NCBI GenBank assembly: GCA_014871385.1
Contig: CM026427.1
Span: forward strand, 7,073,909 to 7,137,908
Source: Ceratodon purpureus
Taxonomy: Eukaryota > Streptophyta > Bryopsida > Pseudoditrichales > Ditrichaceae
Length of the DNA stretch: 64,000 nt
Direction: 5' to 3'
Notes under the pieces: generated by a model
Database searches by the model: none
Seen by the model: only the letters and a program-made list of their open reading frames with translations
Told to the model about the DNA's origin: nothing
Position numbers and translations under genes: made by a program
Shown: piece by piece, positions 1 through 47,661 of the stretch
Layout of the letters: every line of letters begins with the position of its first letter
Position numbering within the stretch: the stretch's first letter is position 1

Positions 1-433
1 AACAAACTGGAAATGCAAAGCTCTTGACTGCTTACAAAAATCCAATACAGATTCCTCGTTAGAGACTGTACCCACAGTGACTCACAAGCGATCCCACACT
101 GAAGTTCAAGCGACAGGCAACACACAGTCAACCACATATGACTCAAACGCAACCCCAAGCATAAGAAGCACTTCAAGCAAAACCAAAGCACAATATATAT
201 CACTTGCAGGGTAAAAACTGAATCAATTGATACCTACGACAGTTCCTCCTTAGTTTGATATCGAACAAGAACTGAAATGCAAAGCTCTTGACATCATCCA
301 AATGACTCCAGGTGTCTCACTTTACTTTCTATATCACTACAAGGGAATAGTTCAAATATACTCACCTCGGATCCGAGGACACACCCTGCGGGGACGCACA
401 GTTTCACAAAAAAAAAGAAAACACTGTGGAACC

Positions 434-456
434 GCAAGCCTCCAAGTGAGGCTTGC
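434..456. repeat. Conserved-stem hairpin, one of four copies
   Basis: A 9-bp perfect stem GCAAGCCTC / GAGGCTTGC with a 5-base loop. Further copies lie at 702-724, 1030-1052 and 3034-3056. The stem is identical in all four, while the loop varies (CAAGT, CACGT, CAAGT, CACTT). Each copy follows a palindrome unit by roughly 55 to 70 bases, so palindrome and hairpin travel as one module. Confidence 0.75.
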
Positions 457-552
457 ACAAACAAAAAACTAAACAGCAAGTCCTTGCCTGCATCAGCAGG
501 TACTTTCTCTCGTGCTCACAGGTCAAGCGTATAGCTCAGTCTCACCAAAAAA

Positions 553-735
553 AAAAAAGACAAGAGTCTCCAGCACTGGGCTGGAGATCATTGCTCAATA
601 AAAGTGAATTGAGATGAGGGCAAAGGGGCACCCCTCGGATCCGAGGCATGGGTCCGGGGTGCCTCCTAACCTCACTTTTCCCATGCACATACTCAAAAAC
701 AGCAAGCCTCCACGTGAGGCTTGCACAAACAAGAA
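553..735. repeat. About 180-bp unit duplicated at 2889-3070
   Basis: This stretch and 2889-3070 are near-identical by eye. Both run from a CTCCAGC/GCTGGAG-type hairpin through the type-A palindrome to the GCAAGCCTC hairpin and an A-rich tail. They are the most recent duplicate pair in the array, separated by about 2.2 kb of more diverged units. Confidence 0.75.
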
Positions 736-2627
736 AATTAAACAGCAAGTAATCAGATTGAAATCAACAAGCTGAATCCAACTAACCTCAAAGGTCAAGC
801 ACAAGCTCCGCAAAACGAACATGGAAATTAACACAAAGCCTTCCCATGCATCCAGCAAGCTGTAACAACAGCGACGCAAAACCAACGAAGAAGCGACTCA
901 AACACAAAGCCCAGGAAGATATCCACGAAGTGCAAATCAGGGAATATTTAGAATATTCTCACCTCGGATCCGAGGACACACCCTGCGGGTACGCACAGTT
1001 TCGCAAAAAAAATAAAATACTCTGAAACCGCAAGCCTCCAAGTGAGGCTTGCACGTACAAAAAGCTATCAAGTACTTGAATATGAACCATAGCCATACGG
1101 TATCTTGGTCAAAACTTTGCACAGATACGCATTTGAGTTAAATCACCAATCTAATATTCACATAACTGAACTAACAATATACATAGATGTCAAAAATAGA
1201 GAACCTGATCTGACAAACAAAAGTGCTTCATCAGGAAGGCAAATCCAGCAAACTACACAATAAAAAATAAAATAGAAATTAAATCGGAATGAAGGAAGCA
1301 AGAGGGATACCATCGAAGAAGCCAACTCAAAAGTCAAGAGCAAAAGAGCTCACACTAACTGGGTAAAAAACAGAGAATGCTGCCTGCATGTAGCAGGTAG
1401 CACCTGACATACATGATCGCAGGAGCTCGATCAGAGCTCGTCCGTAGCTCACAAGTGAAAACAAAGTAAAAAATGCCGTGACTCCAGCTCTACTCGACTC
1501 GAGCTTAGAAAATAAAATTTAATCAATTTAAAACTCCAGCATGAAGCTGGAGCTCAAGGGTGCAAAAAAGCAAAGCAAATTGCTCAGGCCGGGGCACCCC
1601 TCGGATCCGAGGTATGGACCAGGGGTGCTACCAAACCTCACTTTTTTAAGATACTTGACAAATTTATCAAAACATTACATACACTACAAGTCCAAGATGC
1701 ATCAAACCACTAAGCAACAGGCACCGCTCGAACTAAGCAATTAAACTAAAAAATAATTGAGACTCCAGCACGAAGCTGGAGCTCAAGGTCAGAAAAAAGC
1801 GAAGTAGATTGCTTAGGTCAAGGCACCCCTCGGATCCGAGGGATGGTCCAGGGGTGCCGAGGTCGTTCACGTTTTTTGGAACAGTGTGAGAGAACTTGGA
1901 AGTCTTGGTGAGAGGCATAGACAAAAAAAAAAAAAAAACGAGGAAAATGCTCCCTGCTTCAGCATGCAGCAGTTGACATTCATGATCGGAGGAGCTCGAC
2001 GAAAGCTCAACCATAGCACACAAGTGAATCAAATTAAAAATGCCGTGACTCCAGCTGCTTGCTGGAGCTCACGGTTCAATAAAAGCAAAACTGTAAGGTG
2101 ACGCCAAGGCACCCCTCGGATCCGAGGGATGGTCCAGGGGTGCCGAGGTTGTTCATTTCTGGCGCACATGTACAAGAAGACACCAATCCTAAGTGAGAGC
2201 CACACACAGAATTGGAAAAAAATAAAGAGCACGCACCCTGCATCCAGCAGGCAGCAGCTGACCTTCATGATCGGAGGAGCCCGACCAGAGCTCGACCATA
2301 GCAACCAGCGAATAAACCATGGAACAAACCAGGGAACAAACCGGGGAATATTTCAAATATACTCACCTCGGATCCGAGGACACACCCTGCGGGTACGCAG
2401 TCTCACCAAACACTTTTGCCAAAAGTTTCAGAACTACTCGGTATCTAGATTGCAATAAGAGCACAACCCAGCGGATTGGTAAACACATATTACAGATCAA
2501 CACTATATTTTTGTGCATCTATGAGCGTGACTACGAGCAATGCATATTGCAACATAAGTGGAAACAGAGCCTTGTCAATGGTTAGAAATTAAAAATGTAG
2601 AGAATCGCTCATATTCATCCATGGCGC

Positions 2628-2771
2628 TACCAAGTGCATACCAATCAGCACTGCTACAATCGTTACCAAGTGCATACCAATCAGCACTGCTACAATTGTT
2701 ACCAAGTGCATACCAATCAGCACTGCTACAATCGTTACCAAGTGCATACCAATCAGCACTGCTACAGAGTT
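2628..2771. repeat. 36-bp tandem repeat, four units
   Basis: Four head-to-tail 36-bp units begin TACCAAGTGCATACCAATCA at 2628, 2664, 2700 and 2736; the last one diverges at its end. They differ at only one or two bases. Because 36 is a multiple of three, frames stay open on both strands, which accounts for the short ORFs here. There are no spacers, so this is a minisatellite and not a CRISPR array. Confidence 0.9.
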
Positions 2772-3214
2772 GCTTTTTTGACATTCTATGCATGTAATAA
2801 AGCAAAATGAAGAAACAAGTCGAAGAGATTCATGATACATGACTGCAGGATTGGCAAAAGTTCAGTCTCAGCAAACATGGAAATAAAAAAAACAAGAGTC
2901 TCGAGCACTGGGCTGGAGATCATTGCTCAATAAAACTGAATTGAGTTGAGGGCAAAGGGGCACCCCTCGGATCCGAGGCATGGGTCCGGGGTGCCTCCTT
3001 TGCTCACTTTTTCCATACACATACTCAAAAACCGCAAGCCTCCACTTGAGGCTTGCACAAACAAAAAAACTAAAACAGGAAGGCACAAAAACAGAATGCG
3101 AAATCCACTGAGTACTAGATGTAGGAAGTATGGACAGTGAGTTAGTGGCTGAGGAGACGGACACTTTGATCTCAAACATAATACCAGTAATTAATAGTCT
3201 TCAACATTGGGTTC

Positions 3215-6200
3215 CTATGCACATACCTCCTTGATAAATCCATCGCCGTTAGCTGGATTGGCGATTGCAATAAACCGTTCCAATCGTGTCAATAATGAGG
3301 TTTTTATCACTTTAACCGCCTTCTTATTAGCTGTAAGGAGCTCAGAGGGACTTCCTTCCCGGTCTTCTCCCAATCCAGTTATCAAGGAGTCTTTGTATGC
3401 TCGAATTGCCTCCTCTTGAGCGGCGAAAATCTCCCTCTATATTCATGCAATTTTATATAGTTAGTTTTTGAATATTTACATTATGAGAGAACGCGGCTAG
3501 GATAATTAATTTAACTTGCTTACCTCGTATAAGAAGTTGATGAATGCATCTACCGTAAGATGATACCATTTCTTGTTTTTGGTTCGTGTCCACTCAATAA
3601 TGCTTGCCTGCAAGTCCTCCTCCTTCACCAAACCTTTCAGTTGGTCAAAGTCCAACAAACCGATCTGTTGGACACGCCTCAACTCATGAGTCCAGTGCTG
3701 CGCCACATGGTCTACCTGATTCTTCCTGAAACACATTACACAGAGATTCATAGATATTTAAAAAAACAAAAATTGACATTGGCAATTCGAGTAAATGGAC
3801 AAGTTCATACAGAATCTACAAAGCATTTATTCGAAATTCTAAAATGTTTGGATTTACTTACTTGTTCCAATTAGTCATGGCGTGCAACATCATATTGCAA
3901 TTTTCCGGTGTGACATTGATAATAACAGAGCGAACAGAAACATGGAATTCTGCATCTTGTTGATGAAGAGCGTTGATGCTCTCAGTCCATGCAATATGCC
4001 GATGATTCCCGTCCCAAACATGGAAGAATCGGTTGGAGAATTTCTCCAACCCCGGAGTAGAAAGCAAGCGCCTCTCAAACTCACGGTCCTCCTTGCGCCA
4101 TAACTCTGACCACGATGCCCTGTCCGTCTCTGTGACATATGACTCTTCCATCCTATAAGTCTTCAACGACAGATAGAAGCATGCCGATGCCCGCCTGTAT
4201 CCACGCGTGAATTCAGCCTTGAGCTTTTGAATGTCGTACTGCAAGGGCTCCCTCACATCCTTCATGGGGATCATTCTGCAGAGTGGCACGTCAATCTCCA
4301 TACCTGGCAGATCCATCGCACTCTGAAGTGCAAGGTGCGAGGTTCCCATCACCTCCCTGCGTAGCATGTTCTCCATTGCTGCCATGCCTCCTAAGCTATT
4401 CTCCATGTCAGCGGTGGTGCAAGGTACCACCTCCATCCCATGCTCGCTGCTCATCTACACACAAGTACATAAAATTAGAGATTCTCAGTGAATTGTATCA
4501 ATGCACGGTTAACATTAATTTCACTCTGGCAAGCAAGGGACCACATCAGGTTCCAAGTTACTATTTAGCACACAAAATCCTAGACTAAGCACTTAAAGTA
4601 TGAGTCTGAAATATTAATTCGATCCATGCTGAGAGAATCTGAATTAGCTAGTCAGACACCTAACATTGGAGAAACTAACTTCACATTCGAAGGTCAGTCC
4701 ATCCCAACTTACTGCGTCCATCTCAGTAGATTCCGCAACTGTGCTCAGGAGCTCCGGGAAAGCAACCGAATCGGAATGACCAGGCAGATTTTTGATATCG
4801 AAACGGTCCTCCCTCGGATTACGAAGCACCTCGACCGCCTGCAAAGAGAGAATGAGAGCTGAACAGAAGATCCAGCGACAAATTCTACCAAACACCCTAC
4901 CTTGACGACAGATCACCGAAACGTTCCAAGAACAGTTCTTTCTACAACACACGACAATGATATTGAGCTCCAGGCAAGTGGAAATTGCAAGCGATGCTTG
5001 AATCCAATGGATTTAACGTTTTCAATCAATAAATATCATGCATGGTATAGCTGAATTCATGCTCGCAATCAAAGGATGACATCAATTTGCAAGTAACCAT
5101 TCAGCTAATTTCAACCTAGACTATTCAGAATTGTCATAAGTCTCAGAAGTCGAGACGAGACATGGGGCTGGAAACTGAATTACCCATAACCAAAACCTGA
5201 CAAGAGTTTATTATCATTTGAATGTCACTCCTACACTCATACACTCATTGAGCAGTGATGTCTGCTTACGGATTACCACAAAACTTCAAGGTATTCCTGA
5301 GTTCTTCTCGATTGCACAAAAGTTACGCAAATATGTCAAGGAGCACTGAATCGAACTTACCTCTTCAAACTGGCTGGAATTCGTTCCTCTGCTCAACACC
5401 TCTGGGACCGCAACGAAGTGGGTGTCTCCCAGAATTTCGAGTTCAGAGTGGTCCTCTCTCAAGCTATCGAGCACCTCGATCCCCTGCGAGACAATAATGA
5501 AATTACCCAACAAGTGCTTCTTACAGATTCCCTGAAATCTTGGACCTAGGGTTTGGGTACTATATGTGAAGCTAATATCGCACTTGGTGATCATAAAAGA
5601 TTCCTAGAATTTGTCCAGACTTGTATGCATTGCAAGAATCATGCCCACCGAAGTAGTTAGGAGGAAGAGAACTTACCTGGTCTTGAGAAAACTCCGTTGA
5701 AGTGAGAGCAGCCGGCTCCTCGCTCAAGCTACCGAGGTCAGCTCGTTCTGCGACTGAGGCGGTACTTCGATGTCTGAACCCCGTACCACCAGTATCTGAG
5801 TCAACCGGGAGGCCCTGCAGTCAATGCACATGCACCATAATTGCGTCACGCCTTCCTATCCAGTCTGCTCGGAAATTACTTGACTGTGACACTATCAAAC
5901 TCACCAACTGCATCTCACTCATGTACGGGAACTCTAAAACGTGAAATTGAATGGCCAAACTAATTCCTTGGAGAAATTGTCCATAGCAAGAGCTTGGGCG
6001 GATTAGACATAATGAAATAATAAATTAAATATGATAAACTTAAAATGCACATAAAGAGAAAAAAGTAGTGAGCAAACAAATAAGTCTGATATACTTGACA
6101 TATAGTAGCCAATTCCTTGATTTTTAGATGGCCAGATTCATCTGATAAACAATCCACTTCAGCAATACGGCTGAGAGCATCCTTCTCCTTGCGTCTCCTC

Positions 6201-6352
6201 TGGTATGTGATCTGCTTGGAATTTCCAAAATGAGATCCTCGCCTTCTCCCTCTACCTCTAGTCCTACATGATCTAGGAGCCCTAGGCACTCTTGTACTAG
6301 GTTCCTCCCCGTCCCTCATGTGTCTCACTAACACGCTCCCGCAAACATACAA
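3215..6352 (-). CDS. ParB/sulfiredoxin-fold-like protein, seven exons (probable transposon accessory gene)
   Basis: Reading GT-AG junctions with consistent phase gives exons 6352-6095, 5814-5677, 5483-5361, 4838-4713, 4454-3862, 3725-3524 and 3436-3215 (or a donor at 3227 leading to a further exon). The product is about 554 residues. The N-terminus is basic (RTRGRGRRRG). Exons 2-4 (46, 41 and 42 codons, all phase 0) look alike, especially exons 3 and 4 (GIEVLDSLRED and AVEVLRNPRED), suggesting exon duplication. Exon 5 carries IDVPLCRMIPMKDVREP and, about 100 residues later, VWDGNHRHIAW. These resemble the two ParB-N/sulfiredoxin boxes (VPL..I.p...R and DGxHRxxA). No helix-turn-helix was recognised. 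It lies 517 bp from a divergent transposase gene, so it may be an accessory protein of that element. The ParB assignment is by motif only. The start is the first ATG of exon 1 and is not certain. Confidence 0.6.
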
Positions 6353-6869
6353 CTAACTGGGAGGATTGTCATGAAATTGATAAGTGAGACGTTCATTGTC
6401 ACTTAGCAGACTATGTGTATCTTCTCCTCTAATCCCTATAACGCCTGTATTGTGAGTGATACCTGTTATGGATGGTGCCAGTATATAAATAAACTATAAT
6501 ATTAGTAAACATTTGAATTATTGCCGCTAGATCCTTCTATGAAGTCCAACATCGATCTGTAAAGAGTATGACATGATATTATGTTTGAATTATGGAGATC
6601 CACTAATTATCGTTTCATGACCTGGACGCAAATTAGAACGTCCAATTTACTATACTGTATCTTGACAAACCCCTATTTAAATTAAAGGTCAATCCTAAAA
6701 GATTAAATTGACGGCTGCTTGTTATATTTGTAGTAGCAAACAATAACCATATTGGCGCTCTCAGCCGCCTAATCACTTTAGTATGTCAGATACTAAGTAA
6801 CTAAATTTTGTGCTCTACAGGTCATGCAATATCCACCTCTACAAATTATTTATTTAAAGAACATGTAAG
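6353..6869. promoter_or_regulatory. Divergent intergenic region of the two-gene element
   Basis: This AT-rich gap separates the two divergent genes. A TATA-like TATATAAATAA lies near 6482 in plus orientation. A CTCTACAG stretch near 6813-6820 could be an acceptor for an upstream exon of the plus-strand gene. No repeat of the BamHI palindrome is present here. Confidence 0.35.
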
Positions 6870-9800
6870 GTGGCAATTTATTTAGCCCCCGACGAACTAT
6901 ATAGTCTCTCCAATGTCTTGGAGTCACAACTCATTGTATTGTTGTATTCCCACTCCACCTCTCCTCCAATGCATGATTGTACTTCTTCCATCTTCTATAG
7001 TACTCTTAGAATAGCCTCTCTGCGAGCTCATGACGGGGGTATTCCATTAGTGATGTCTGTAGGTCCAGACAATAAGGTACTTGTCGAGGAGCGACTGCTT
7101 AGTTTAAGGTTTGGTTTTAGAGCCGGGACCATTTACGTGGAAGAAGAGATCTTCGATGATAATGGAGAGATTCGTGAGTGTATATTTCAAGTTAAGGATA
7201 GTACACCTGATGGTTATGTCTGGAATCTTGGCATTGGAACTTTCAAGGTATATGGGTTATCAGATGCACAGATGTCTGAGTCTACTGTTCTTTTGACCCC
7301 TCCTCCTTCAACGTCTACTGTTCCAGTTCCTGGTCGAGCATCTGTCAAAATAGAACCGAGTGACAATTCAGTGCACTTGTTGAGTGACTCGGATGATGAC
7401 ACTCACAGTGAAATCAAGCTAGGAGATACTAGGTCAAATCCATTCCAGTCTCGGGGGTCTCAGCAGTCAAGTCGTCCATCGCGACAGAGCAGTCGTTCTA
7501 GTATGTCCGCATCATTGTTTACAGGGCGTCCACTTATTCATCCTACTTCCCAGAAAAATAGAAGCGTCTTGTTTGCCATCAGGATGACGGCATCGAGAAG
7601 GGGCTCCCGATCAGAACTGTCGCAGATTGATTTTGACACAATCGACCATGAACAAGTGAAGTATTTACCGCTAGTTTATGACGGAGACAAGATTTTTGAG
7701 CTGCCCCCTTTACCTGAAGGCGTTCCACCTCAATTTGGAGGTGGCATGGACGGGATGAGCAAGCAGTATGATGGCCACACCTGGTGCAAGACCATGACCA
7801 CAAACATCAAGAACGAGTATGGCCTCACATATCGTAAGTCATCCTGTACTGGACATTTAGAATGTCCCAACCGTAGTTGCGATTATATCTGCAGGAATAA
7901 TGGAATGGTAAACAGCACAGAATGGTCAGGTGTAGCCTTCGTACCGTTTTCTGTGGGAGGATCTCCCACCGAGAAATCTACATTAGCATGCAAAGTATGT
8001 AAGACACCTCCAATTTGTCTAGCACTGTGCGAGGCTAGGATCTACCACGTATTATCCGCAGATAAAGATGTTACCCGTGCGGCCATTCATTTAGGACGTC
8101 ACAGACATCCTGTATCTCAAGGTAGATGTCAGGATTCAATGGACGTAATGTTTGAGTGCATTGCTAAGGAGGTTCAGAAGACACCTAACGCCAAGAATTC
8201 TGCTATCGTCTTAGCGGCCAGCAAGCAGTACCTTGCCGATGCTCTGATCCGTCCAACTGCAGGAGGTAGTCATCTTTGAGGAGCATCTATGGATGCTGTA
8301 ATGGACCAATTTGAGACTCTTACATCACCGAATATACGCAATTTTGTTTCTGGCTCGAAGAGGTTTTTTCGCCAAGGAAGAGGAGTGACAGACAGCATCC
8401 TGGAGCTGAAGGACTACTCCAACTTCGATTTTATCCATCGTAATCAATTCCCTGGACAGAACGAAGGCAAGGTATTTCTATTCAAGATGTCCACTGATGG
8501 TCCAGGAAGCGGTGTGGATTTGGTGAAGCGCATGCAGCCCGGAGGCAATCTTCAAGACTGTTGGATCATGTTTGACCATGTCAAGCGCGTAGCTGACTGG
8601 ACCACTATGGCATGCCACGTTTATGACAGTAAGTACTGTAAAGTTCTGACGATTGCCCTTTGTGACATGCAATCCGAAGATGCTGCTGCTCAGGAGTTAT
8701 TTTGGCTTCAGCTTAATGAAGTTATGCGGAAGAACGGCCTTGAAAATACTAATTTCAAAGGATTCCTGGCTGACAACGCTGGAGGCAACTGGCACGCTGT
8801 TCGTAAGGTGTATGGGAACGGCGATCCCAATGATCCAATGGAAGAACGTGAACGCACTTGTCTTTTCCGCTGGACAAAGTGCTTGCAGAGGGCAACTTCC
8901 CGGAACATCTTGCCAAGCTTTCAAGACCAACACAAAGCTTTGTGCAAAGTATGGAAGGACGCAAAGTCCCAGGAGGAAGCAGACGCATAGTACAACGTCA
9001 TCCGCGGGTGGTGGCTTTCGTCAGGCGCCACAACAGAAGAAGGAAGGGGTCATCTAAATGATTGGATGGCTTTCTGGCACTATCGTTACAGACAATGGGG
9101 AGGGTCAATGCAGCTTGTAAGTTGAATTGTCTTTTAATCTTTCATCTAGTATTAGTATACTTGAATTATTTTTTATGATCCTGAAAATGACATCATTTGT
9201 TTCATTTTTTTCCCCAGGATCTTACCCTTGACGAGAGAGCCGACATGCCTTCCTGCAACCTTGCCGAAACGGTCCACAACAGATGGCTTCAACAATCAGG
9301 AAATACAATGACCTGTTTGTACGAGGCAACAGTGGATGATATGATCCGAGCATTCATGCAGATCACAAGTTACCGGTCTTGGCTGAAAGGAGGAAAGGGC
9401 GGTAAAGGTCCGGACAGAGCAGAACTTCGTTTACGCCACGCTCAACGCTCTAGTGACCCCAAGTTGATTGCTGAGGCAGTGAACTCCTACCCGGGAGCGG
9501 AGGATATATTGACGAAGAAAGGAGGCTTGGAAGGTGCAGAGATCTTTGGATCTACAAAACGGAAGTTAGATTTGCCTCCCGGTTCCAGTCATGACTCTCA
9601 TCGTTATGATACAGTGAATTACTCCATTCCTCGTGATGGCACGAGGTCCACCAGAGCACGCATTGAGGAGGCCCTTTCTCAACCTGACTCGGGTGTTCAA
9701 CACACTACTTCAGTGCAGGAGACAGATTGCGACCCCTCTAAGTGGCACATTGCCAGACTGTCCGGCAAGTCTAACCGAAAATGCCAAGCAATGCAGGCTC

Positions 9801-10588
9801 ATACGAATGAGAAGTGTGATACCCGAGTGCGCCGAGGTACACATGGTACGTCTGCTCCTACATATGTAGGCATGAAGAAGGAGTTCAGAATCGATCGTCA
9901 TATTTCTACTGACTTCTGGTTTTGCGCCGATGACATTAATAGATGTGTAAAAGGCACAAAGAAGTCGTTTGTGATCGATTGGCCATCTATCCCGCAGACT
10001 TGGCCTGTGAAAAGGGGCACAAATTTGACCATCAAAGAGATTTTGGCTCTTGAGGAGGCCGGGTTTCAACTCCAACAACGTGGAGTACTATCACCTCGAC
10101 GTCAGTTCTAGGTTGCTGCTAATATGCCGCTTCCAAGGAGTCATTTCCCGGTCCCTGTCGATCCTGATACACACCCGACGACTCGAAACGGATATGCCAT
10201 CAGGAGAAGTTCTGACGTACCTACCTCCGAGCACCGCAACAAGTGGAGCAGCGCGGGTCTCATGAACAAGTATTGGATAACAAGTGTCACATCGATCCCA
10301 TATCCAGGATTTGGCTGTGTCATCTCCTTGAAGAGTCCCAGTGAAACCATATATTGTATCACCATCACGGACTTCCCTGGATGTACTTGCCCCGACTTCA
10401 TGAAAATGACTTCGGAAACCCTTGGCAAAAGAGGCCATTGGAAGTACTGCAAACATGTTTATTATATCTTCCGCTATCTATGTGAGATGGATTACAAGGT
10501 TGATACTTTTATGCACGCCCCTAGCTTCAGCTTCAACGAAGTTATGCGTGTTCTAGAGATGGCCAAAGTTGCTGAACCGCTTGAGTAG
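6870..10588 (+). pseudogene. Mutator-like (MULE) SWIM-type transposase with three in-frame stops
   Basis: Two exons, 6870-9116 and 9218-10588 (GT-AG intron of 101 bp), form one frame of about 1,206 codons. It is broken only by TGA at 8277 and TAG at 8988 and 10109, with no frameshift. Order: a variable N-terminal part; a Ser-rich linker; a Cys-rich region (CTGHLECPNRSCDYIC, then CKVC..CLALC) ending in IHLGRHRHPV, like the HxH of WRKY/GCM1-type zinc fingers; an RNase H-like core with IMFDHVKR and FLADNAGGNWHAVRKVYG carrying candidate catalytic Asp residues; a conserved downstream region; and a SWIM finger (CTC at about 10382 and KYCKH at about 10441). These are MULE/FAR1-type features. The 5' edge is uncertain: the frame opens upstream of the first in-frame ATG (6969), so an earlier exon is likely. 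The stops would cut the product unless read through, so I call it a young pseudogene. Confidence 0.75.
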
Positions 10589-10795
10589 TTTTTTGTATGG
10601 TTAGACTCTGGTATTGAGTGACCAATACAGTTCAAGAATACATTATATGAATAGCGGAATTGATTTGTTTTGGCTTTGAGCTGGATTTGGAATCCGCAGA
10701 ACATAAATAAAGGTCACTTTTTTTTATTTATTGTTCACTTCTCAAATGTGGTCGTGTAAAAATTAAGAAGAAAAATAATGTTTTGGCATATTTTG

Positions 10796-10833
10796 GGAAT
10801 ATTCTCTCCTCGGATCCGAGGAGAGAATATTCC
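10796..10833. repeat. Perfect 38-bp palindrome
   Basis: Each 19-base arm reads GGAATATTCTCTCCTCGGA, and the second half is its exact reverse complement with no spacer. The central 14 bp equal the array palindrome, and the arm matches the type-B context (GAATATTCTCACCTCGG at about 952) with one difference. It lies 208 bp past the transposase stop. Imperfect complementarity continues outward (AAGAAGAAAAATAATGTTTTG against CAAAATATTCTTCTTT). It could be a transposon end, a binding site or a cruciform. Confidence 0.9.
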
Positions 10834-12887
10834 TTTATGACCTCAAAATATTCTTCTTTCAGTTCCGAGACCACGAAAATGATTAAAAAAAAAATCCAAA
10901 AAAATTTGATACCCAATCTGTATGTAACTTAAACAGTTAGATAAACCTTGAAACCACGCTCATTTCATTCATTCCACGGTTATAGGCTCTACTTATTTGG
11001 CATTCATATATACAAGCAAAGTGTCCCAAATCGCTCATCATTGTGTGATAACTCTCAAAAAAACTCAAAAAATATACTAAAAACTCAAATTTTTACAGAG
11101 AAACTGGTTTTTTTTGGGCTCACCGCTCACTGCTCACTGCTCACCGCTCACTACTCACCGCTCACAAGATAGCGTCGCTGCGATTGACTATATGACACAA
11201 TTATTTTTTTTTTCATACAATTATGCCGTGATTGACTTTATGACAAATTATATCGAAGAGAAGTAGACAATGACATTTATAAATATAAATTATATTATGA
11301 ACACAACCTAAATTTCCAAACTTAAGGGATATGATGTTTTAATGTACAACAAGAAAGAAAAATATTTAACTATCTTAGACATCAAGCTGTGTTGTAGTTT
11401 ACATTAAATTTTGATTTATAGTTATTAGTAATGCATGTTATTAAAGAACCAAATTAGTTATAATCACTTTGTGGTTTTTGAAAGATATTTAAACATATAG
11501 CTTGTTTATTTTTAGCACTACAATTGTAAAAACCTTAAAGAAATATTTTTGTTCCATCCATAGTCTAAGTTTGATGAGATTTGTCAAGAATCCAATTTAG
11601 TTATAAATTCAACTTTACTATTTGTAATAATTTCACCTAAATTCAATATTTTTTAAGGTTTGATAGCTAAAGTTATATAAAAGGATTAATTTCTATTAAA
11701 TTTTGTGTGATTCTATATTTTTGTTTGAAAATTCAAATTTTTTCTATAACATATTAATATTGTGATGTCTAATACATATTTTTAGTATCTAATATGTAAT
11801 CTATATATTTTAATCCCTAAAAGTCTTTGCAACTACATTGTGGTCGCAACACTTCTTTGTAGGCTATTTTAAACTCTGGCAATTTTGGAAATTTCTGAAA
11901 TTTTCACTACACATAGCTCTCACCAATGTTTTCTAATGGGGCAAATTTCAAAGCATTCACAAGTTGCCCGTCATTCATAAGGGCAAAAAGTGACAAGAGT
12001 TAATTTCAAAGGTTGGGCACTTGCAAAACAATGGGTCCAATATTTTTCATCCATATAAATTGATGACAATTTTCATCCAATAAACTTTTTTGTCTCACTT
12101 ATTATTTGCATATAAAAGGGTTGTCTTGATTCTTAAAGTCTTCACATCCAAATTACGTTTATCATCCATAATTTTATTTCATCCAAAATATTTTTTCATC
12201 CACATAAGATATTACATCCAATCTTGACAAAATTCATCCACTATCTATGACGTGGCGGGTCCAGCCACTTGACCCTTTATAACAAAAACCTGCCCTTCAA
12301 AATTAAAAAAAACAAAATTTATATACAATTTACACTTGAAAAAATTCCATAAATTTGAGTTTACTTCAATTGCATTCAAATTTTTTGTGATTCTTTCTCT
12401 CATTGACATGAACATATCTACTATTTGGATTTCCAATTGGTCATGTTTACATCGATCTTTTGATAATTTTAAGTTTGGAGAATATAATCAGCTCTTTTTA
12501 TACCAACAAGGATTTTTTCCCCTTTCCAAGCCTGTATGGGGCTCAAACTTTGTAAGTGTACACCTAACTTCTATGCCTACAAGAATTTGATGACCCTTTC
12601 TTGCTCAAATTTCTTTGACAACTTAAGAAGTAGAGTTTTTGGATCTCAAAATTTTGGTATAGTGTTAGAACATAGTAAAAAAAAACTTTTACGTTAAGTT
12701 CAAAAATTATAAGCTTCCAATCATCACAATAGATTCTGCTCAAATTTGGTATAGATATTTTTGGATAAAGTAGATATAAGATCCTACGGTTACATATTCA
12801 ATTTTAAGTCTAAATTTTAAAACAAAAGGTTGCTACTAGTAGAGGCTTGGTTTTGGCATTTTAATCAAACTATATTTCACTTACATA
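10834..12887. other. AT-rich intergenic stretch
   Basis: No gene seen. At 11119-11164 there are about seven degenerate copies of GCTCACCGCTCACTG-like sequence. From 11170 to 12240 the DNA is A/T-rich without an open frame longer than about 60 codons. Around 12020-12240 the phrase TTCATCCA/TTTCATCC recurs. Confidence 0.6.
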
Positions 12888-45005: not shown

Positions 45006-45652
45006 CTGCACAAAAAATAAACATAATCTGTAAATAACTAAGGGAAGAAAAACTAGTGAAGAAAAAGTAAATAACTGTCAGCTCAGCCCAATATTACTGA
45101 GAATTTTGCTAGTTTGCCAGATATTGATAAGGATTTTGGAATTTGATTTTATTACATGGGTTTTAAGAAAACACTGTATAAAATTTTGGTCTTTAAGCTA
45201 AAGGAGTGTTTTTAATGCCAGAGTGTTGAATGTATAAGCAATTTAGACACGGTACAATGTTGTGATTTAAAGTGAATGTTGTTTATAATAAGACAAAAAG
45301 AGAGATTGGATACCGTACTTTAGGGTCAGCTTCATCACCCCTGGGGCGAATAATTAATTAACTTCCAAGTTTTGACGTCCGCCACTAAAAAAAGTAATTT
45401 TCAAAATTTCGACTTTTTAAAAAAAAAATTACTGTAAGTTCGACTTTCATCCAGAAATTGATGAAGTTTTGTTAATTCGCCATCTTGTTTTGAAAGAGAC
45501 AGCCGACTTTTCAATTAACTACCAGTATCCCTAAGCGTCCATTTTCCTTTGCTTAACCGACCCTAATTTCACTGTTTTCCATGGAGTTTGCTTGTGCAAG
45601 TAGTTGTTTGCCAACGTTCTTTTGTGTGTTTTAGCTTGAGAGTTATAGGTTT

Positions 45653-47661
45653 TTGATTTGGATGATTGAGAGTACCACCATGGCAAAGCAGCAGCTTTTG
45701 AGCAATATGTTCACCATTATAGACAAAGAGGAAAGGGAGGATAGAGTTGAGCGTGAGTTTGCACAGCTGCATGTGAAGATGGAGTTGGAGCAATCAAAGA
45801 AGAAAGAAGTTGAAAAACGACCGGTGGGTAGGCCCAGGATGCGAATTGAAGCTGTACTTCTTCCAACCAAGGAGGAGAAAGCAAAGGCAACACCAAGCAC
45901 TACAAAGACTAGGGGGCGATATACAAACTGGTTCGTTCCATCTCTTTGGGATCCTATTTACTCAGCTGTAAGTCACCACAGAAGTCTTGGTCATGCTCTA
46001 AGATATTTGCAAGTGAAGTACAAACTCCCTGGTCAAAACAAGAGTGTGTATGACAAATTGACTAGAGGGTCCTTGAGAGAGTGGTTCACTAAAACGGGGG
46101 AATTAAAAGAAGGCACAAAACAAGCAATCTTCAAAGAAACAGCAGTGTTTACAGGTGGTGCTCAACATTCCTATGTTTTATCTAAACATCATGAGTTAGA
46201 GGAGGAGATTATCACTTTGCTAAAGGCACATCGTGAGGCAGGTCAACCTTTGTTTGCAACTTCAGTGAGGACTTTGATTCGAACCCTAATTCAGAAAAGA
46301 GAACCTAACCTTCTGGATTTCCAAAGTCCAAACGGCTTTAGAGTTTCTTTAGAATGGACAAGGGATTTTGTGAGAACAAACCTAGATTGGAGCTTTAGAA
46401 AAAGCATAGGTGCAGCAAGAAAGCTTCCAGCAGATTGGGAACAACAGGGTTTAAACATGGCACATCGGACTGCTTACCTTGTCAAAGCTCACTCCATTCC
46501 ACCTGAGTTGGTAGTCAATACAGATCAAACCGGGATACACTTGGTACCAACCGGAGGGACCCGCACTTGGGCAGAAAAGGGCTCTAAGCATGTACAAGTG
46601 CTTGGCATGGAGGATAAAAGGCAAATTACTGCCACTTTATCCTCCTCAGCTGCTGGACAATTATTACCTCTACAGATTGTTTTTACAGGGACAACTGAGC
46701 GGTCCCTACCTCCTCGAAATGCTGGAAGGTTAATGTGTGAAGAAGCAGGCTGGCATTTGACATTCTCTGCAAATCATTGGAGTAACTTGACAACATGCAA
46801 ACAATTCGTGGAGGCAGTTTTACAACCATACAGAAGAAAGCAAGTGGAAGCAATGGGGTTAGACTCAAATTCAAAGCTTGTTTGGATCTTGGACTGTTGG
46901 AGTGTGCACATTTCGCAGGAGTTTATGTCCTGGCTGAAGGTAACACATGTGGAAATCCTTCTTATCTTTGTCCCTGCGAATTGCACAAGTATTTTTCAAC
47001 CTGCAGATGTGATATTACAACGTCCTTTCAAGCATGGATTTCGACAGCAATTCGACCAGTACACAAGTGAGACTCTGGGTCAGCAGATTGACGAGAAAGA
47101 ACTTCAAGACGTGAAGTTGGAGACTAAAATTTCGGTGCTAAAACCTCTAATCTGTGGATGGTTATGGCATGCATGGCAACATATCAACAAGCCAAGCATG
47201 ATACAGAAAGGCTGGTCTATGTGTCGTTTAGATCAAGCTTTTGAACCAACATTTCAAACAGCAGGAATGGAAGAACACATGAAGAGTTCTTTGTTTAAAG
47301 AAGTGGTGGATGCCGAGCAAGATTCCAGAGAAAAAGAAGATGATATAGATCCAGATCTAACTGTTGAACTTGTAATGGAGAGAAACTTGTGCAGTGTTGC
47401 AAATGTCACAGCAGAAAACAGAAGATCTACAGTTGCTAACATGAAGGATCAGGCAAGAAAAAGGTATGTCCAATCATTCATACACTTCAAGTTGATTTCA
47501 GATCTCAATTCTCGAAATACAAAATGTTAGAATGCAAAAATTCTAAACCTTACCAACACTTCTGCCCTCTATCTTTTTTGACCAGAAACCTGCACAGCAA
47601 TGGCGAAACAAGCAATCAGCAAGGTGGGAAGGGAAAACGAGCCAGGGCAAACAAACAATAG
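45653..47661 (+). CDS. Pogo-type DDE transposase, two exons
   Basis: Exons 45653-47463 and 47586-47661 (122-bp GT-AG intron) give about 628 residues; the join makes the end GGKGKRARANKQ, a likely nuclear signal. An acidic/basic coiled N-terminus holds KRPVGRPRM, an AT-hook. A helix-turn-helix DNA-binding part follows (HALRYLQVKYKLPG…KLTRGSLREWF). The DDE core shows VVNTDQTGIHLVP (first Asp), WILDCWSVHISQEF (second Asp) and PANCTSIFQPADVI (third Asp). By my count 37 residues lie between the second and third Asp. This is the DDE_1 (pogo/Tigger/jerky) fold. No stop or frameshift interrupts it. Several ATGs lie near the start (45653, 45662, 45680); the third has the better context (ACCATGG). Confidence 0.92.

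Follow-up and report, generated by a model that had tools for sequence, protein, structure and literature searches.

A large transposon of the moss Ceratodon purpureus carries a transposase gene, a probably fused ParB-like/methyltransferase gene and family-specific palindromes

Bacterial ParB/parS systems combine a ParB-type protein with a short palindromic site. In Ectocarpus, the Sola1 transposon Sola1-1_Ec32 encodes a fused ParB-like and methyltransferase protein of 1104 amino acids (aa), and the accessible sections of the report on it cite algal ParB-methylase cases (Iyer 2011; Petroll 2025) and suggest that proteins of this kind bind the transposon encoding them and mark it (PMC12477816). 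Arabidopsis VANDAL elements contain short motifs in tandem repeats, introns included, that differ between families and are bound by the element-encoded anti-silencing protein VANC (PMC5735166). Retrotransposons that carry cytosine methyltransferases have also been described (PMC5890265). Here we describe a 15,087-bp DNA transposon of Ceratodon purpureus, most of which lies in a stretch of 64,000 nucleotides (assembly GCA_014871385.1, contig CM026427.1), referred to below as the window. We found that the element has two divergent genes, one for a transposase and one that probably encodes a fused ParB-like/methyltransferase protein, and that its non-coding DNA contains multiple copies of a palindrome whose sequence differs between related families.

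The moss element resembles bacterial ParB/parS in having a ParB-type protein plus a short palindrome, a resemblance at the level of motifs; it differs in that no segregation role is suggested. Like Sola1-1_Ec32, it is a transposon that probably encodes a ParB-like/methyltransferase protein. In contrast, the transposase there is set apart by its name, Sola1, and no cognate palindrome arrays are mentioned in the accessible sections of that report (PMC12477816). A preliminary description of the window, made from the sequence, had stated that no ParB-like partner was known for such an element; this was wrong because the Ectocarpus Sola1 protein had been reported (PMC12477816). The likeness to VANDAL and VANC lies in the accessory protein, in the short motifs multiplied in introns and other non-coding parts, and in the differences between families. 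However, VANC is not described as ParB-like or as a methylase in the text available, nor are the VANDAL motifs described as palindromes there, and anti-silencing has been shown for VANC and is suggested for the moss element by analogy (PMC5735166). Retrotransposons with cytosine methyltransferases are likewise mobile elements with their own DNA-modifying enzyme; the enzymes and the element classes are different, and the accessible text mentions no ParB-like part (PMC5890265).

The transposase gene and the ParB-like/methylase gene form one mobile unit. The element occupies C7:7070002-7085088; that is, positions 1-11180 of the window (C7:7073909-7137908) and 3,907 bp further left. Its left end is CGGGAATGCTATCTTGTGAGCGG (CAGGAATG in some copies) and its right end, reverse-complemented, is CAGCGACGCTATCTTGTGAGCGG. 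Short terminal inverted repeats with GCTATCTTGTGAGCGG are present at both ends, a feature of MULE/MuDR elements. We examined target site duplications in 12 copies of the window's family (family A): the window copy, one copy on C2 and ten pairs with both ends listed. Ten of these had a perfect 10-bp duplication (one of the ten read by eye), one had a single mismatch and one was not judgeable, its right end lying outside the DNA piece examined. For copies on C5 and C3, right ends alone were inspected. The target site duplications of MULE/MuDR elements are 8-11 bp long, a range that includes 10 bp. When the right end was used as a DNA query, 39 other copies were scored. Of these, 29 ended at the identical base, six ~30 bases beyond it and four earlier; a search with the left end gave a similar picture.

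The two genes are also found together throughout the genome (362.5 Mb, 151 contigs). We searched it by tblastn with the transposase core (window 8280-8990) and with the ParB-like exon (3858-4454), taking for each the best 150 of ~2,000 candidates. Among the best 150 transposase places, 114 had a divergent ParB-like exon within 8 kb on the 5' side of the transposase, one had an exon nearby in another orientation, 16 had a divergent exon at 8-48 kb and 19 had none listed within 60 kb. Conversely, 115 of the best 150 ParB-like places had a transposase within 8 kb, compared to 1.5 (maximum 6) with random placement in 200 trials. At the 16 wide-spaced places the ParB-like exon is 8-48 kb from the transposase rather than 3-5.5 kb, and all 16 have the same orientation; they may result from nested insertion or represent very large, cargo-carrying elements.

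The preliminary description had proposed the two genes as a mobile unit, to be abandoned if they never co-occurred elsewhere. They co-occur at many loci, and aligned loci have shared ends and 10-bp duplications, within the 8-11 bp that it had anticipated. Both genes are present as described: the transposase frame has a CxC..CxH motif, and the divergent gene, on the minus strand, has several exons and a DGNHR box. Several details of that description had to be revised. Its limits for the unit, 340 and 10833, are not the true ends, which lie at position 11180 and, outside the window, 3,907 bp to its left. Its 517-bp spacer is replaced by assigned start codons ~650 bp apart. Its gene content was correct for the transposase and ParB-like genes and missed the methyltransferase part, which lies left of the window. 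Lastly, its left palindromes, thought to flank the element, are inside it, most likely within an intron; palindromes as element ends were rejected.

The window copy is dead because it has seven in-frame stops, three in the transposase (Table 1) and four in the methylase part, and the idea that this copy is active was rejected. Open frames for both genes were found in other copies of the family. The CxC..CxH motif could be aligned across the transposases of family A and two related families, B and D.

We found the methyltransferase part to the left of the ParB-like exons and on the same strand. In a copy on C2, a 557-aa frame is open there and by itself matches Pfam N6_N4_Mtase (E=0.0018). The joined methylase exons of this copy (687 aa) match PF01555 with E=6.8e-9 and 36.4 bits, above the cut-off of 26.7; family D also scores above it (31.7 bits) and family B below (22.1 bits). 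A profile of four of the methylase sequences, compared with the PDB, matched the adenine methyltransferases DpnA (2.3e-6) and CcrM (5e-4). At 74 of 78 listed methylase places, a ParB-like exon lies upstream within 20 kb and in the same orientation as the methylase; at three others it is on the same strand at a distance of 20-50 kb, and at one there is none. Triples with a divergent transposase are formed by 61 of the 78. PF01555 itself was listed at 32 places in the genome. At 28 of these there is a divergent family-D transposase no more than 40 kb away (12 kb at most for 26 of the 28); of the other four, two belong to the window's family and two are unpaired. The predicted exon borders of the ParB-like/methylase gene are GT/AG with compatible phases, and these exons probably encode one fused protein.

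Two observations concern related methylase genes. The locus L083 (C8:9595300-9596800) has a methylase of the same type, with no listed family-D transposase within 40 kb; it may be a family member, a solo gene or a host gene. In a group of methylases ~86% identical, many copies have exactly one TGA inside the match. If this TGA is at one common position, it may indicate a retained intron, recoding or common decay.

The palindromes are abundant and their core is nearly invariant. The window contains nine exact copies of the 14-bp form, CCTCGGATCCGAGG, eight at the left and one within a 38-bp palindrome at the right, as the preliminary description had reported. The 12-bp core CTCGGATCCGAG is absent from the rest of the 64 kb even when one mismatch is allowed (0.03 expected). 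In the genome there are 1,882 copies of the core, compared to 8 of the reversed word, and 381 of the 14-bp form. In the window element and seven DNA pieces that had not been picked by site, 64 cores were exact and 0, 2 and 8 had one, two and three mismatches, respectively; the reversed word, in the same eight DNAs, gave one place with two mismatches and eight with three. Outside the core, the arms vary between copies and yet remain complementary. Among 58 distinct sites, 56 were complementary at position 1 (a position fixed in part of them, which came from loci selected by the 14-mer) and 51 at position 4. A shifted control gave 12 and 7, and the signal reached the control level by 15 bases.

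In the two elements mapped, the sites lie outside the assigned exons. In the window element, eight of the nine are in the putative 3,351-bp intron of the ParB-like/methylase gene; coding exons account for 48% of the element and have none. The probability of such avoidance, 0.003, assumes independent sites, and arrayed sites are not independent. In a family B element, nine of 19 sites are in the same intron, six between the methylase and the left end, two between the transposase and the right end and two elsewhere; none is in an assigned exon. The palindrome intron of the window also contains a 36-bp tandem repeat (2628-2766; 3.9 copies, 98%). At C1:3987037-3990546 (L009, L013), a 3.5-kb sequence with seven cores and no listed element gene nearby matches its own reverse complement at 98.8% identity. 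It may be a foldback-like derivative or an assembly effect.

Related families have the same gene order and related sites. Compared to the window's family by tblastn, family B has a transposase that is 68% identical and a ParB-like part about 48-50% identical, with the same core and different arms; the one copy checked (by eye) has a 10-bp target duplication, TCTATCAAGT. In subfamily C (C2:18545200-18546600), nine of the ten TCGGATCCGA sites read CTCGGATCCGAA; eight of the ten are just upstream of the first methylase exon and two just downstream. In family D (C1:818600-839600), the transposase is 40% and the ParB-like exon 39% identical, and a methylase is present. Its site is GTTCGGTACCGAAC or GTTCGGTGCCGAAC; four are between the ParB-like and first methylase exons and two perfect ones are within the transposase intron. 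The family D word TTCGGTACCGAA occurs 322 times in the genome, compared to 23 for the control. The right end of family D, AGAGGGAGGCTATGACATGAGCGGTGAGCG, is similar to the A and B right ends; we did not find a left end for this family in the DNA pieces examined. The sites of all four (sub)families fit the pattern TCGGnnCCGA. At the locus L091, which adjoins a D-like transposase, exact TCGGnnCCGA is absent and GTTCGGTGCAGAAC is present instead. Arrays of TTCGGTACCGAA at C1:9855037-9858176, C2:889190-892614 and C2:9658574-9659521, mostly with ~117 bp spacing and away from listed family-D transposases, are perhaps further families of the same kind.

We propose that the element is a large two-gene transposon whose fused ParB-like/methylase protein binds TCGGnnCCGA sites of its own family and may thereby control the chromatin or expression of the element; we put the probability of this reading at roughly 60%. 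The transposase would cut at the terminal repeats and move the element. The ParB-like and methyltransferase exons would give one protein, which would bind the family's own palindromes in non-coding DNA, often arrayed in an intron of its own gene. By marking or occupying these sites, the protein might then control the chromatin or expression of the element, in the manner of VANC; this last step is the weaker one, and a self-marking, anti-silencing role is suggested by that analogy. We advance more tentatively the further idea that a ParB-type reader joined to a methyltransferase has co-drifted with its own site arrays (CTCGGATCCGAG, CTCGGATCCGAA and TTCGGTACCGAA), giving a family-level marking of self and non-self that escapes silencing in a land plant.

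Several observations weigh against the proposed reading. The ParB-like assignment is at motif level and rests on the pattern IPLCRM..VR..L / VWDGNHR, which we take to be ParB/sulfiredoxin-like, and on the published Ectocarpus analogue. We found no relevant match for the ParB-like part in searches of Pfam, NCBIfam and PHROGs, and at E≤10 no Pfam family matched it. A genome-wide search with PF02195 had no match at E≤10; the same profile matched in 11 of 14 control genomes. A profile search of the PDB with the ParB-like part gave matches at chance level. A Pfam scan of the frames of the window found nothing relevant, with weak matches from two unrelated exons, and PHROGs gave one match to the family-D ParB-like frame (E 8.2) that we judged to be chance. 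In tblastn searches of phages, the ParB-like part of family D found none and that of the window copy found virion proteins (best E 0.04), also judged to be chance. The methylase gave weak phage matches (best E 7e-4 among the 10 of 289 records listed), and the two phage methylase regions inspected had no annotated ParB-like neighbour. Relatives were absent from a viral contig collection searched with methylase, ParB-like and transposase alignments, and from prokaryote contigs searched with the ParB-like alignment. That is, the earlier ParB-like label holds for the motifs and found no profile match.

The domain evidence is similar for the transposase and incomplete for the methylase. The Pfam MULE domain PF10551 did not match the A, B or D transposases at E≤10. 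With 150 of 384 candidates scored, the genome has at least 93 places for this domain, and the listed one closest to a listed transposase place is 33 kb away. A profile-profile comparison of the transposase with five MULE frames from the same genome was not significant (E 0.35), with a D...CxFH stretch aligned. The SWIM domain PF04434 stayed below the cut-off and was seen in family D alone (E 0.54, 10.3 versus 19.6 bits). The MULE-SWIM label of the preliminary description is therefore supported by a SWIM-like motif, terminal inverted repeats and the 10-bp duplication, and was not confirmed by the Pfam MULE and SWIM domains. In amino-methyltransferases, catalytic motif IV is of the DPPY type. 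It is DVPE in A and B, not DPPY, and is DQPF in D and DQPY at L083. The FxGxG that is usual for motif I is missing from all four sequences. Catalysis in the window's own family is uncertain because of these two motifs, and its methylase may be non-catalytic.

The distribution of the palindromes raises further points of this kind. Some copies have few sites; the open-frame copy on C2 has one in the intron stretch and one at the right. The first 50 of the 1,882 core places form 13 clusters on C1, and five of these are beside no listed gene; of the remaining clusters, compared by eye, seven adjoin gene matches and one a decayed methylase remnant. Dispersal of the palindromes without either gene, which the preliminary description had named as contrary evidence, is thus seen for those five clusters and not for the others. 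The constant core within arrays could be partly a result of homogenisation. Finally, eight of the 19 family B sites are located beyond the outer limits of the genes, six of them towards the left end on the methylase side. This last point would also be expected if the palindromes were subterminal binding sites of the transposase and not sites of the ParB-methylase. The single site or pair between the transposase 3' end and the right terminus in A and B, and the two perfect sites in the transposase intron of family D, fit the same idea. We consider it unlikely: the ParB-methylase intron, which lies kilobases from the termini, holds most sites of the window element and nine of 19 in B, and the terminal repeats themselves are without any site.

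It is also possible, and in our estimate quite unlikely, that the ParB-like part and the methylase part belong to two different genes, with the palindrome region serving as the promoter of the second. A Met conserved in A, B, C and D (EM..EKLQ) near the start of the methylase part would fit this reading. However, residues ahead of that Met are conserved as well: the first methylase exon opens with I..H[FYW].{6,7}EM immediately after an AG in all four families. In addition, the exon upstream ends in a phase-0 GT donor in the window (PANGDGFIKE|GT), in B (KNGEGFIRE|GT) and at L091 (PANGKFFLTE|GT), and a fused protein has been published in another transposon (PMC12477816).

Neutral expansion of a satellite or foldback sequence in the intron, with no bound protein, is in our judgement very unlikely as the origin of the arrays. 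The length of the array unit does vary from copy to copy (about 255, 86, 392, 126 and 96 bp), and there are symmetric arrays at C1:1206k and C1:3988k. In contrast, the 12-bp core is constant despite the differing units and arms, across A and B, whose ParB-like exons are 48% identical, and more distant families have a related yet distinct core. Passive capture of the ParB-methylase gene as a passenger, which the stops in many of its copies might suggest, is scarcely credible: its order with the transposase is the same in A, B and D despite transposase divergence to 40% identity, and many frames are open.

The features of the element in the window are listed in Table 1. Outside the element, the window has a 631-aa open frame (45635-47530) that by eye looks like a pogo/Tc1-type DDE transposase.

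Table 1. Features of the transposon in the window (window coordinates)
Feature	Position	Strand	Remarks
Transposon, right 11,180 bp	1..11180	.	copies with common ends and 10-bp target duplication; left 3,907 bp at C7:7070002-7073908 (locus L046)
Putative intron, 3,351 bp, between ParB-like and methylase exons (window part)	1..3226	-	continues to L046:3876
Palindrome core CTCGGATCCGAG	366..377	.	exact match
Palindrome core CTCGGATCCGAG	634..645	.	exact match
Palindrome core CTCGGATCCGAG	963..974	.	exact match
Palindrome core CTCGGATCCGAG	1600..1611	.	exact match
Palindrome core CTCGGATCCGAG	1829..1840	.	exact match
Palindrome core CTCGGATCCGAG	2115..2126	.	exact match
Palindrome core CTCGGATCCGAG	2367..2378	.	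exact match
Palindrome core CTCGGATCCGAG	2966..2977	.	exact match
ParB-like/methylase gene, last exon ahead of palindrome intron	3227..3436	-	ends PANGDGFIKE|GTATGT, phase 0; like exon ends in B and L091
ParB-like/methylase gene, exon following ParB-like core	3524..3725	-	predicted exon
ParB/sulfiredoxin-like core exon, VWDGNHRHIAW	3862..4454	-	motif level, no match to a hidden Markov model
ParB-like/methylase gene, short exon	4713..4838	-	predicted exon
ParB-like/methylase gene, short exon	5361..5483	-	resembles next short exon
ParB-like/methylase gene, short exon	5677..5814	-	AG/GT borders, phase 0
ParB-like/methylase gene, first recognised exon	6095..6319	-	basic region, ATG at 6319
Transposase exon 1	6969..9116	+	C and HxH motifs, DDE-like core by eye; stops 8277 (TGA), 8988 (TAG); open in other copies
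Transposase exon 2	9218..10588	+	CxC..CxH (SWIM-like) motif near exon end; stop 10109 (TAG)
38-bp perfect palindrome, core at 10809	10796..10833	.	between transposase 3' end and right terminus; two sites there in both B copies seen
Right terminus CACCGCTCACAAGATAGCGTCGCTG	11156..11180	+	left partner CGGGAATGCTATCTTGTGAGCGG at L046:94
Target site duplication CGATTGACTA (10 bp), right copy	11181..11190	+	left copy L046:84-93, perfect

The ParB-methylase accessory protein itself is already reported, from the Ectocarpus transposon and the algal cases. What looks new here is the MULE-like partner, the moss host and the family-specific palindrome arrays as a candidate recognition site. With a candidate target visible, in the form of multi-copy, family-specific palindromes, the published suggestion of proteins that bind and mark the DNA of their own element becomes directly testable. 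If our reading is true, the moss element would join VANC as a second example of a transposon that controls itself epigenetically in a sequence-specific way. It would involve a bacterial-type domain and perhaps marks other than 5-methylcytosine.

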